Source: Dehalococcoidia bacterium (GTDB lineage Bacteria; Chloroflexota; Dehalococcoidia; Lucifugimonadales; UBA826). From it: a DNA stretch of 64,000 nucleotides. The notes under the pieces are model-generated. The model was given only the letters and a program-made list of their open reading frames with translations. It ran no database searches and was not told the DNA's origin. Below are positions 47,675-52,753 of this stretch, in pieces. The position numbers were made by a program, and so were the translations under genes. The DNA is taken from assembly GCA_029936675.1 (NCBI GenBank), contig JAPYSB010000006.1:1-64000 (forward strand), written 5' to 3'. The first letter of the stretch is position 1, and each line of letters begins with the position of its first letter.

Positions 47675-48766
47675 TTGCCTGATATAAAAGTTGCGATAAT
47701 CGGAGTAGGTAACTGTGCTTCTTCCTTGATTCAAGGAGTGGTCAAGTATGCCGATGTGGGCCCTAACGACAATGTTCCAGGTCTGATGCATCCTGTTTTG
47801 GGAGAATACGGTATTGGAGATATAAAAGTTGTTGCTGCGTTTGATGTCGATGCAAGTAAAGTGGGTAAAGATCTGTCGGAAGCGATCTTTGCAGGGCCGA
47901 ATAACACCGTTAAATTTCAAGATGTCGAGGAAACTGGAGTAATAGTTCAAAGGGGAATGACCCACGATGGGATAGGCCGTTACACCTCAGAAGTCATAAC
48001 TAAAGCCGATGGCGGCACCGACGACGTCGCTGCGATTTTGAAAGAACGAGAGGTAGATGTGGTAATTAATTACCTACCAGTAGGTTCTGAGGAGGCTACG
48101 AAATGGTATGTTGAACAAGTACTACAGGCTGGCTGCGGTTTTATAAATTGCATACCTGTTTTCATCGCTAGTGGAGAGAATGATTATTGGCAAAATAGAT
48201 TCAGAGAGGCCGGTGCACCAATAATCGGGGATGATATCAAATCTCAGGTAGGGGCTACTATCACTCACAGAGTGTTAACTAGGTTATTTATGGACCGAGG
48301 TGTTGAGCTCCTTAGGACATACCAATTAAATTTTGGCGGCAATACAGACTTCATGAATATGCTTGATAGAGACAGACTGGTTTCAAAAAAAATATCCAAA
48401 ACCCAATCTGTCACATCGCAAGCGGACGAATTCATACCAGCTCGAGATGTCCATGTAGGCCCTAGTGACTATGTGCCGTGGCTCACAGACCGGAAGTGGT
48501 GCTATATCAGGATGGAAGGCAAAACTTTTGGAGATGTGCCTCTAAATATGGAGTTAAAGCTTGAGGTTTGGGATAGTCCTAACTCTGCAGGGGTTGTAAT
48601 AGATGCAGTGCGGTGTGCCAAAATTGCAAAAGATAGAGGTATAAGCGGTCCAGTAACTGCCCCTTCATCATATTTCATGAAATCCCCACTCATTCAGTAT
48701 ACGGACGATCAAGCTCGACAGCTTGTTGAGGATTTCATCGCTGGAGAAGAATCCGCCCAAGGCTAG
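47675..48766 (+). CDS. ino1: myo-inositol-1-phosphate synthase
   Basis: The 363-residue enzyme converts glucose-6-phosphate to inositol-1-phosphate with bound NAD. The Rossmann opening [14 protein letters not shown] and the core segments [32 protein letters not shown] and LNFGGNTDF are typical of the compact prokaryotic MIPS. The start is TTG 47675 behind TGAGGAG. A glycosyltransferase and a CDP-alcohol phosphatidyltransferase follow, which suggests the product feeds inositol phospholipids. Confidence 0.94.
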
Positions 48767-48803
48767 TTTCAAACACCCGTGATTTGTCGATAGACGAGGT
48801 TAT

Positions 48804-49958
48804 ATGAACCAACCTCTGAAGGTTGCGCTGGTTTCCCCATATGATTTTGCCTCACCTGGCGGTGTCACTACTCATATACAGAACCTGAGTGTTAATTTAG
48901 AACAAAAAGGTGTATTCACTAGGATTTTTGCTCCTGTTTCCGCAAGTCCTCATAACTCAATTCCCAATTTAACCCCTATGGGTACCCCAGTTCCCGTACC
49001 AATTGGGGGGTCGGTGGCAAGAATATCCCTATCGGTTTGGCTGGCAGACCGGCTTAGAAAATCAATTGAGACGGAAAATTTCGATATTGTCCATGTCCAT
49101 GAGCCATTCGCCGGAGCCTTGACTCTCGGGGTATTGTCAAAGAGGTTACGAAACAAACCAGTTATAGTGGCTACTTTTCATTCGTTTGAAGGATCAAGCC
49201 TTTATCAAATAGTGCCTAACAAGTTATTGCAAAAATATTTTCGAAAATTAGACGGGAGGATTGCTGTTTCATCATCAGCAAAATCTTATGTTAGCAAATA
49301 TTTACCAGCAGACTACGACATTATTCCAAATGGGATAGACATCGATGAAATTCTAGAGGCAACTCCATATCAAAATCTTCTCGACGATAAGATAAACATT
49401 TTGTTTGTGGGGCGCCTTGAGAAAAGAAAAGGGTTGAAATACCTCCTGACATCTTTTTGCGATCTTAAATGGAAGTTTCCTAACATTAGGCTCATCATTG
49501 TCGGTGCTGGAAAAATGGATATAGAATCACAGCGAATTCTAGGAGAGAGAAACCCAGGCGATGTCTTCATGGCGGGACCCGTGACTCACGAAGAGAAGTT
49601 GAAGTATTTCAAAACTGCAGATATTTTTTGCACCCCCGCGACGGGACAAGAAAGTTTCGGAATAGTGCTTCTAGAGGCGATGTCTGCCGGATTACCGATT
49701 GTGGCTTCTAGAATAGATGGTTATCAGTCGGTACTGGATGAAAAAGAGGGACTCTTTGCAAACGTAAAAGATCCAAATGACCTGTCGGAAAAACTATCAC
49801 GACTAATTAATGACAAAAATATGAGGATGCAAATGGGAAAAAACGGGAGAGAAAAATCTCAGTTATTTTCTTGGCCTATAGTGACTGAAAAAATCCTCGG
49901 CCATTACTTATCATTAACCAGTGTCCTAAATACCGGCCACTTGAGACCTACTGATTGA
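48804..49958 (+). CDS. GT4-family glycosyltransferase (PimA-like)
   Basis: The 384-residue GT-B protein has the N-terminal VSPYDFASPGGVTTHIQ glycine-rich loop and a central PNGID segment. The C-terminal LFVGRLEKRKGL and GQESFGIVLLEAMSAGLPIVAS regions hold the E-x7-E nucleotide-sugar motif. Position between ino1 and a phosphatidylinositol(phosphate) synthase-like gene suggests transfer of a sugar, such as mannose, to an inositol lipid as PimA does. This is a context inference. Confidence 0.87.
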   Translation: MNQPLKVALVSPYDFASPGGVTTHIQNLSVNLEQKGVFTRIFAPVSASPHNSIPNLTPMGTPVPVPIGGSVARISLSVWLADRLRKSIETENFDIVHVHEPFAGALTLGVLSKRLRNKPVIVATFHSFEGSSLYQIVPNKLLQKYFRKLDGRIAVSSSAKSYVSKYLPADYDIIPNGIDIDEILEATPYQNLLDDKINILFVGRLEKRKGLKYLLTSFCDLKWKFPNIRLIIVGAGKMDIESQRILGERNPGDVFMAGPVTHEEKLKYFKTADIFCTPATGQESFGIVLLEAMSAGLPIVASRIDGYQSVLDEKEGLFANVKDPNDLSEKLSRLINDKNMRMQMGKNGREKSQLFSWPIVTEKILGHYLSLTSVLNTGHLRPTD

Positions 49959-49985
49959 TATGCTACTTATACTCAGAGAGAGAAT

Positions 49986-50630
49986 ATGATTGCTAGGGAA
50001 AACTTACGGGAACTACTTTTTAAATATTATGAAGAGCCTTTTTCTGCTTTTTTTGACCGTATAGGCTTTACGCCAAACATGGTCACCTTGCTCGGGCTGC
50101 TGATAATTTTGATAGCAACGATATTTATTTCAGCAGGTAATTTTTGGATAGGTGGAATTATCGTTGCGCTTGGAGGAGCTCTAGATCTTATTGACGGTGC
50201 CTTAGCTAGAAGGAAAGGATTAGTTTCAAAATTTGGCGCTATGTTTGATTCCGTTGCAGATAGACTACAGGAGGCATTAGTACTTCTCGGGCTACTAATT
50301 TATTATTCTCTCAACAATTGTGTGTCTTCAAATCTTATTCCCTTTAATTTATTCGAAGGCTTTAATTCTTGCGCTTTTGCGCAAATAATGACCTACACTG
50401 CATTTGTTGGATCAGTCATGGTCAGTTATCTTAGATCGCGAGCAGAAGGTTTGGGTATAGAGTGTAAAGTTGGGATCATGACTCGCCCTGAACGAGTGGC
50501 TATTATATCTGTCGGGCTTGTTATGGCGCATTGGGTGCCAGTTGTTATGATCGTAGTTTTAATGATTCTTACGGGACTGGGTTTTTTCACAACTATTCAA
50601 AGATTAATGCATTCGTCTAAAGAACTATAA
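49986..50630 (+). CDS. CDP-alcohol phosphatidyltransferase (probable phosphatidylinositol phosphate synthase)
   Basis: The 214-residue membrane enzyme transfers a phosphatidyl group from CDP-diacylglycerol to an alcohol. The full D-x2-D-G-x2-A-R-x8-G-x3-D-x3-D motif is present (D67, D70, G71, A74, R75, G84, D88, D92), with about six helices around it. Next to ino1, the likely acceptor is inositol phosphate, giving PI-phosphate. Glycerol phosphate (PgsA) is the alternative. A Sec-protein disulfide oxidoreductase gene follows 18 bases later. Confidence 0.88.
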   Translation: MIARENLRELLFKYYEEPFSAFFDRIGFTPNMVTLLGLLIILIATIFISAGNFWIGGIIVALGGALDLIDGALARRKGLVSKFGAMFDSVADRLQEALVLLGLLIYYSLNNCVSSNLIPFNLFEGFNSCAFAQIMTYTAFVGSVMVSYLRSRAEGLGIECKVGIMTRPERVAIISVGLVMAHWVPVVMIVVLMILTGLGFFTTIQRLMHSSKEL

Positions 50631-50648
50631 ACCTGGAGATTATGGAAC

Positions 50649-51341
50649 ATGCAAATACTAAATGATTCGGATAAAGAGATCGTTAAAAGCCGATTTGAAA
50701 ACGAATTAGTGAATGAAGTAAACATAACTTTGTTTACCCAAATGGACCTTGGGGGTCTGATAGTTCCTGGTCGTGAATGCGAGACTTGCCCGCCAACTGA
50801 ACAATTGTTAAAAGAGGTTAGTGAAACATCTGACCTAATCAACTTTAGGAAACTAGATATCAGGAATGATTCAGAAGAAGCAGCACGATGTAATGTTTCC
50901 AGAATACCGTCCTTTTTAGTTTCCAAAGGAGATGAAACAAACGTAAGGTATCTTGGTATACCTGCTGGAACTGAGTTTCCAGTTTTATTGGAAGCCTTGG
51001 TCAATGTTTCATCTGATGAACCAAAAATATCAGAAGACACGAAAGGATTTTTAGACGGCCTCCAAGAAATTATATCAATCAAAACATTTGTTACACCCAA
51101 TTGACCGCATTGCCCAGGTGTGGCCAGTTTGGCTCATGCAATGGCAGCGTTTACCCAAAAGGTGGTGGCTGAAGTTATTGAGGTTCAAGAGTTTCCAGAT
51201 TTAGGTAATGCATACCAAGTTAAAGGAGTCCCTTTAACTGTGATCAATGAACAATATAGTTTCACCGGTGCAGCAAATGAACAAATGCTAGTCGAGCATG
51301 TGAAAAAAGCGCTGTTGAAAGATCTTGAAGGAGATAGTTAA
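50649..51341 (+). CDS. selenocysteine protein disulfide oxidoreductase (two-domain thioredoxin/glutaredoxin-like)
   Basis: The complete frame of 230 residues reads through an in-frame TGA at 51102-51104. The N-terminal thioredoxin-like unit has C44-E-T-C47. The C-terminal unit continues the strand IKTFVTPN, then Sec152-P-H-C155 and PGVASLAHAMA, EVQEFPDLGNAYQVKGVP and TVINE. This matches the PDO family, where the site is C-P-Y-C, so the TGA replaces the first, nucleophilic cysteine. A hairpin with its apical loop 22 nt after the UGA fits a bacterial SECIS. The protein probably reduces disulfides or peroxides. A CTGGAG site precedes the ATG; the metallopeptidase TTG follows two bases after the TAA. 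Confidence 0.92.
51105..51143 (+). other. candidate bacterial SECIS element (PDO)
   Basis: CAUUGC pairs with GCAAUG (51108-51113 with 51138-51143), and GGCCA with UGGCU (51122-51126 with 51130-51134, one G-U). They enclose a GUU apical loop (51127-51129). The loop begins 22 nt after the UGA and starts with G, as in the bacterial SECIS consensus. Confidence 0.7.
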
Positions 51342-51343
51342 TT

Positions 51344-52753
51344 TTGAATTTCAGATCCCGATTATATCTCCATTTGGTATTTCTGGGATTAGCGGTATTT
51401 TGTTTCAATTTTTCGACCAATATCACTCTAGCATCTGATTCTGACATCGAGATTAAGTCGGCTTCGGCAAAAAGTGAATTCCCTGAAGGTATTCGTTTTT
51501 CTGTAGAGGCAATATCTAGTAGCCGTATTGCGGAGATAGCCGTCAATTTCAGAATTGGCCAACAGATATCCGGAGTATACGAGTATTTGGATTTTGAGGG
51601 TGGGTTGGAGGTCAAAGGCAGTCTTTTCTGGAAGACAAACACTAGTGCTAAATATGTGCCTCCAGGCACCATTATTGAGTATGCTTTTACTATTTTAGAT
51701 GAATCAGGTAACACCTTTAATTCCGAGAATAATTATCTCTTATATTCTGATACTCGATTTGAATGGCAAGAAGTAGAATTAGGTACTATAGCGGTGGCTT
51801 ATCACGGACCGGTGAAAAGCAGAGCAGAAGATTTATTAAATGCTATGAATCAAACTCTATACGCAATGGAGCCGGTATTCGGAGATGTTCAAGGAGACCC
51901 AATAAGAGTAACCATGTACAACAATGTTGCAGAGATGATGGGAGCCTTGCCTCCAAGTAGTTCCACCATGAGAAGTGAATTGATAACAGAAGGGCAGGCT
52001 TATCCAGATATTGGTACAGTATTAGTACTTGGCGGCGGCAGGCTTTCAAGAGGCACTGCTTCACATGAAGTGACTCACATTTTAGTCCATCGAGCTGGGG
52101 ATAGTGTGTTTAGCAGTGTTCCCTCTTGGTTGAATGAAGGGTTGGCAGAATTTGGAAATGTTTCCCCTAGCTTTTCTTACGATGTGGCACTTGATTTCGC
52201 TGTTCATGCCGACAGGTTGATGCCCATTACTTCGATGAGAAGCCGGCCTGGGAATCCGGAAGATGTGATTATTTTTTATGGGTCAGCAAGCTCAATAGTA
52301 GAATTTATGATATATAAATTCGGTCCTGCCAAAATGCTTAACCTGTTAACTGAGCATAAATCGGGTAGAAATTTGGATGATTCAATAGAGTTTGTTTATG
52401 GTATTAGCAAACTTGAACTTGAGAACGAATGGAGGACCTACATAGGTGCTCCCGTATATGAACCAGATTTGTCAAAGGAGAAATTACCGACTCCTATACC
52501 TAGACCTGCAGTGGGACTGTTTTCTTTAACCCCTCAGTCTGGGTCTACTTCGGTAAAATCTACAGAAATAGACACCTCTCAAAATATCACTTCACATGAT
52601 CAACCCAATGACATGGCAAATTCTGAATATAAGAGTTCCGGGGCCTCGCAATCTGGAAGTTGCAATCGACTGAATAGCAAAAACTATGCAACGGATTATT
52701 CAATGTTTCTTTTAATCATTCCGCCATTTTTCATTTGGTCCCGCCGCAGGTAA
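51344..52753 (+). CDS. secreted/anchored gluzincin metallopeptidase (peptidase MA-like)
   Basis: The 469-residue protein starts at TTG, two bases after the PDO gene. It has an N-terminal signal peptide (about 1-30) and an extracytoplasmic domain with HEVTH (241-245). The third zinc ligand is a glutamate in WLNEGLAEF (~262-270). A Pro/Ser/Thr-rich stretch follows. The C-terminus has a hydrophobic helix and terminal R-R-R, which resembles an anchor or sorting tail. It would act outside the membrane. Its operon position after a disulfide oxidoreductase suggests, but does not show, an envelope role. Confidence 0.82.
   Translation: MNFRSRLYLHLVFLGLAVFCFNFSTNITLASDSDIEIKSASAKSEFPEGIRFSVEAISSSRIAEIAVNFRIGQQISGVYEYLDFEGGLEVKGSLFWKTNTSAKYVPPGTIIEYAFTILDESGNTFNSENNYLLYSDTRFEWQEVELGTIAVAYHGPVKSRAEDLLNAMNQTLYAMEPVFGDVQGDPIRVTMYNNVAEMMGALPPSSSTMRSELITEGQAYPDIGTVLVLGGGRLSRGTASHEVTHILVHRAGDSVFSSVPSWLNEGLAEFGNVSPSFSYDVALDFAVHADRLMPITSMRSRPGNPEDVIIFYGSASSIVEFMIYKFGPAKMLNLLTEHKSGRNLDDSIEFVYGISKLELENEWRTYIGAPVYEPDLSKEKLPTPIPRPAVGLFSLTPQSGSTSVKSTEIDTSQNITSHDQPNDMANSEYKSSGASQSGSCNRLNSKNYATDYSMFLLIIPPFFIWSRRR

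Follow-up and report, generated by a model that had tools for sequence, protein, structure and literature searches.

An in-frame UGA almost certainly encodes active-site selenocysteine in a protein disulfide oxidoreductase of a marine SAR202 (Chloroflexota) bacterium

We analyzed a 64,000-nucleotide stretch of DNA (the window) and found that its host, a marine bacterium of SAR202 (Chloroflexota), almost certainly reads the UGA at 51102-51104 as selenocysteine (Sec) at the active site of a protein disulfide oxidoreductase (PDO). The explanation in which we place very high confidence is a PDO carrying Sec152-Pro-His-Cys155, with Sec probably inserted via SelB, tRNA-Sec(UCA) and a hairpin downstream of the codon. 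The analysis established the reading frame, the conservation of the site, the Sec machinery of the genome, the predicted fold of the protein and the selection acting on its gene.

Reading frame, protein family and predicted fold

The plus strand of the window holds at 50649-51341 a single frame of 230 codons, which opens with ATG at 50649, closes with TAA at 51339-51341 and is interrupted only by the TGA at 51102-51104 (codon 152). An earlier note on this DNA had described two halves separated by one in-frame TGA, and indeed no second stop was found within the 230 codons. The following features were assigned:

50649..51341, plus strand: predicted Sec-containing two-domain PDO (TIGR02187), 230 aa with TGA readthrough; profile, 1a8l alignment and AlphaFold2 model
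50778..50789, plus strand: CETC of the N-terminal thioredoxin domain, residues 44-47; both Cys invariant in the 23-sequence alignment
51102..51104, plus strand: in-frame TGA, predicted Sec, residue 152; column invariant C/U in the 23-sequence alignment, 33 TGA and 30 Cys codons
51102..51113, plus strand: U-P-H-C redox motif of the C-terminal thioredoxin domain; frame, 1a8l alignment and 23-sequence alignment
51118..51137, plus strand: bacterial SECIS-like hairpin with a 4-5 bp upper stem; comparative pairing and bSECIS constraints (PMC13188914)

Against the NCBIfam profile TIGR02187, currently named PDO_seleno_TRX, the protein scored 221.9 bits (cutoff 185, 5.5e-66) over residues 6-221, and the P. 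furiosus PDO 1a8l aligned over residues 2-222 with its CPYC opposite U-P-H-C. The above-cutoff profile match and the alignment bear out the assignment to the two-domain PDO family, and both continue unbroken across the TGA. The same alignment places the TGA at the nucleophilic Cys of C-P-x-C with the second Cys intact, just as the earlier note had read it. An AlphaFold2 model of the 230-aa protein, built from 23 aligned locus sequences in which Cys stood in for Sec, reached a mean pLDDT of 91.3. Its top Foldseek matches in the PDB were the PDOs 1a8l, 2ayt, 2ywm, 1j08 and 2hls (TM 0.82-0.91; 0.87-0.91 for 1a8l, 2ayt and 2ywm). Model and best matches display a tandem pair of thioredoxin folds, and in the window protein each domain has a C/UxxC redox motif (CETC in the N-terminal, UPHC in the C-terminal one). 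Judged by its sequence, 50649-51341 encodes a cytosolic-type PDO with thioredoxin folds in tandem and a putative disulfide reductase/oxidase/isomerase activity.

Selenocysteine machinery and genetic code

A genome devoid of Sec machinery would, according to the earlier note, speak against Sec at this site, and a search for selA, selB, selC and selD had been proposed there. All four were found in the window's own genome: SelB at C3:262105-263955 (351 bits), SelA at C10:183783-185117 (530 bits), SelD at C10:144035-144958 on the minus strand (384 bits) and tRNA-Sec at C3:119561-119654 (65.5 bits), which ARAGORN calls tRNA-SeC with anticodon tca (UCA). SelD has an in-frame TGA of its own, giving U in the SCAGUASK catalytic site, which we take to be the well-known Sec position of this protein; the SelD TGA (L009:2390 region) is followed by a strong hairpin whose loop is of the GGU type. 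Among 60 relatives, SelB was above the cutoff in 20 of the 22 Sec-PDO genomes, the other two being 55% and 74% complete. Two genomes of this set, G046 and G056, have a Cys-PDO and no SelB above the cutoff, a pattern that agrees with loss of Sec decoding. TGA is also a normal stop here, because it ends 11 of the 37 larger open reading frames of the window; on this ground the code-4 reading, TGA as Trp, was rejected.

SECIS-like hairpin

With the U of UGA numbered 1, the upper stem pairs G22-C23-C24-A25 with U29-G30-G31-C32 around the apical loop G26-U27-U28 (51127-51129). A further G21-U33 pair and an outer stem of 51108-51113 with 51138-51143 are possible, as is a bulged U20 (51121) beneath the stem, at a cost of 2.3 kcal/mol relative to the free fold; a bulged U below the SECIS upper stem is known in E. 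coli fdhF. The bacterial SECIS model has a loop of 3-9 nt with G among its first two positions, an upper stem of 4-16 bp and 16-37 nt between UGA and loop (PMC13188914). A 3-nt GUU loop on a 4-5 bp stem, 22 nt from the UGA, lies within these limits, and the SECIS layout claimed in the earlier note therefore stands.

All four upper pairs form in 22 of the 33 Sec sequences (0.67, with 0.19 expected from synonymous codon resampling and 0 of 2000 resamples reaching the Sec-gene value) vs. 6 of 30 Cys sequences (0.20, expectation 0.17), where the five-pair mean is slightly raised too (53/2000 resamples); the p-values are underestimates, as the sequences share ancestry, and amino-acid differences explain part of the Sec/Cys contrast. 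Loop position 1 is G in 29/33 Sec genes vs. 11/30 Cys genes. The comparison suggests that in Sec genes the upper stem is favored over and above what the protein sequence demands, and only weakly so in Cys genes, and its direction is clear. The minimum free energy of the hairpin, compared with dinucleotide shuffles, revealed no unusual stability (z = -0.30), and the Rfam match at the site, SECIS_3, was sub-threshold and no better than expected by chance (14.2 bits, E 2.3); support for the hairpin comes from the comparison of sequences. Set against 500 shuffles, its pairing percentage and covariation score were higher than in every one; pairs changed on both sides numbered only two, no better than in shuffles. 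Little strict covariation is seen, as conserved residues are encoded in the same region. In the distant Sec genes L063-L065, L078, L085 and L092 the stem register differs.

Insertion of an ordinary amino acid by suppression of the UGA, without selenium, would be another account of readthrough, as all the evidence for Sec is comparative. We regard it as very unlikely, because the complete Sec machinery, the exchange of Sec and Cys at the redox-active site and a SECIS-like hairpin favored in Sec over Cys genes make up the classic Sec signature.

Conservation of the TGA site and selection

The alignment with Cys-form homologues that the earlier note had called for comprised 63 readable sequences of Chloroflexota, plus a few of unclassified bacteria among them; 33 have TGA at the Sec/Cys site and 30 a Cys codon (TGC or TGT). 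The TGA occupies the identical codon in members of the genus, the family and the order, in homologues as divergent as about 36-43% identity, and the remaining sequences have Cys there. Within the window's family, the active-site codon is TGA in each of the ten intact homologues, one of which is the window's own. In a set of 60 genomes that comprised the window's and relatives of its genus, family and order, 33 had a PDO match, and the interruptions listed for this set were TGA, except for a terminal TAA inside two matches and one degraded copy. Across 400 Chloroflexota genomes, 102 PDO matches exceeded the TIGR02187 cutoff; 52 had no TGA and 50 had one, its exact site being confirmed at sequence level only for the loci read individually.

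These data bear on the idea that the TGA is a genuine stop, so that the locus would be a decaying pseudogene or yield the N-terminal domain product alone. The genome does use TGA as a stop and a decayed PDO copy does exist in the congener G005, but dozens of species have TGA at the identical codon, nearly all others have Cys there, and none of the 102 above-cutoff matches of the phylum survey is interrupted by TAA or TAG. Moreover, the domain 1 Cys pair and the resolving Cys of UPHC are retained in nearly all. Purifying selection is strong 3′ of the TGA: pairs drawn from six same-genus species whose dS was not saturated gave dN/dS of 0.08-0.22 on the 5′ side of the TGA and 0.03-0.08 on the 3′ side. 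The lower downstream values indicate that the 3′ stretch is translated and more constrained than the 5′ stretch. Decay does not fit one stop type at one codon across relatives; the stops or indels at unrelated positions that the earlier note would have taken as its mark were not what close relatives displayed: there this codon is either TGA or one for Cys. We therefore judge a genuine stop extremely unlikely. The chance of an assembly or base-calling error from TGC or TGT is practically negligible since the same TGA is present in ten family assemblies, counting the window's, even if the latter is a draft of 53 contigs and probably metagenomic. Pseudogene, assembly error and non-Sec suppression were all rejected.

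Two further PDO loci were observed. L049 (G029:C1:1424513-1425166) has Ser at the Sec/Cys position (SPAC), and SelB is present in its genome. In the decayed PDO of G005 (L101 / L051, QGNN01000045.1) the first Cys of CETC is changed to TAG, and a stretch of ~148 codons that would contain the Sec site is absent between two TGAACAAT copies, with flanking genes intact. Either gene loss through short-repeat deletion or assembly collapse may lie behind this decay. As one congener lost the gene, the PDO is not essential in the whole genus.

Exchange of Sec and Cys in the PDO family

A quick maximum-likelihood tree of the 63 proteins, with the Sec site masked, needed 9 Sec/Cys changes, at least 5 of them forced by well-supported branches (changes counted irrespective of gain or loss). 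We tentatively put forward, as a possibility short of our favored view, that Sec-PDO is a main thiol-redox enzyme of ancient origin in SAR202 as in other Chloroflexota, that Sec and Cys have been exchanged repeatedly and that cytosolic disulfide chemistry depends on selenium. If so, uncultured ocean bacteria would rely on selenium for this chemistry. The family offers a natural Sec/Cys exchange series in one enzyme and a test bed for selenium retention or loss. Standard pipelines would annotate the gene as a truncated PDO or miss it, while the correct reading gives SAR202, a marine lineage poorly represented in culture, an extra selenoenzyme.

Genomic context and proposed mechanism

The PDO gene has a CDP-alcohol phosphatidyltransferase gene on one side and a peptidase MA-like gene on the other, and genes for a glycosyltransferase and a myo-inositol-phosphate synthase-like protein lie upstream; in the window the row runs over 47675-52753 in the order inositol-phosphate synthase-like, glycosyltransferase, CDP-alcohol phosphatidyltransferase, PDO, peptidase MA. 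The block around the PDO is widely conserved across the taxonomic order and, because it is kept around several Cys copies as well, says little on Sec. No thioredoxin reductase was found among the PDO neighbors scanned. The best candidate for one, just short of the family cutoff at 324 bits, maps 3 kb from selB. A thioredoxin-reductase-like flavoprotein with CATC was observed at L100:5869-6831 (C3:266877-267773 in the own genome); its nucleotide-binding stretch reads CRSSSLHA, and classic TrxR has HRRxxxR there. This flavoprotein, likewise encoded 3 kb from selB, is a possible partner of the PDO.

In the mechanism that we propose, the ribosome would decode the UGA at 51102-51104 as Sec using SelB, tRNA-Sec(UCA) and the hairpin just 3′ of it. 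The N-terminal domain would hold the CETC dithiol and the C-terminal domain the selenol-thiol pair Sec152-Pro-His-Cys155. The selenolate of Sec152 would attack disulfides of substrates, Cys155 would resolve the mixed selenenylsulfide, and the pair might then be re-reduced by the thioredoxin-reductase-like flavoprotein or by the N-terminal CETC. In this scheme we infer Sec insertion, catalytic direction, electron donor and substrates alike.

Comparison with known systems

The earlier note had considered a Sec form of the two-domain PDO possibly novel, which was wrong: it was published in 2006 (PMC1794560). Surveying all bacteria, Zhang et al. (2006) reported two selenoproteins (example ABB15282.1) in a family termed 'homolog of AhpF, amino-terminal domain', with Carboxydothermus hydrogenoformans and Symbiobacterium thermophilum named as carriers (PMC1794560). 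The TIGR02187 accession and the UxxC motif appear in reviews of 2022 and 2026 (PMC9312934, PMC13188914), and four Asgard Sec sequences of the PDO family are known (PMC11227280). The Sec form having been catalogued since 2006, ours is a real finding of an already known kind of protein. The window PDO shares the family model, the UxxC motif and the single Sec with the known Sec-PDO family (PMC1794560) but differs in lineage, being from SAR202, Dehalococcoidia. In the literature searched, which covered subscription papers in part, no Chloroflexota or SAR202 example of Sec-PDO was found, nor anything specific on selenoproteins of these lineages.

The closest relatives of known structure are PDOs of archaea and Aquifex. 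With the Cys-form PDOs of P. furiosus (1a8l), A. aeolicus (2ayt/2ywm) and A. pernix (2hls) the window PDO shares two tandem thioredoxin folds (Foldseek TM 0.82-0.91, 29-32% identity), whereas the first position of the second motif is Cys in those and Sec here; compared with 1a8l, its domain 1 has a longer stretch ahead of CETC (LGGLIVPGR). Sec-thioredoxin and Sec-glutaredoxin (UxxC) likewise place a selenol nucleophile in a CxxC-type motif, but are single-domain proteins of other families (PF00085 and PF00462 according to PMC9312934 and PMC13188914). The N-terminal domain of AhpF (1zyn, 6il7) has the same tandem thioredoxin fold (TM 0.74-0.83), yet belongs to a flavoprotein and is about 20% identical to the window PDO. 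In a phage collection only distant PDO matches were detected, some annotated as AhpF.

The window PDO thus adds to a known selenoprotein family, from a lineage without a report in the literature searched. Sec members numbered 2 in all bacteria in the 2006 survey (PMC1794560) vs. about 50 in our one-phylum sample; a Sec family counted twice then is now common in one phylum. What looks new is its wide occurrence in SAR202 and Chloroflexota, together with the repeated exchange of Sec and Cys.
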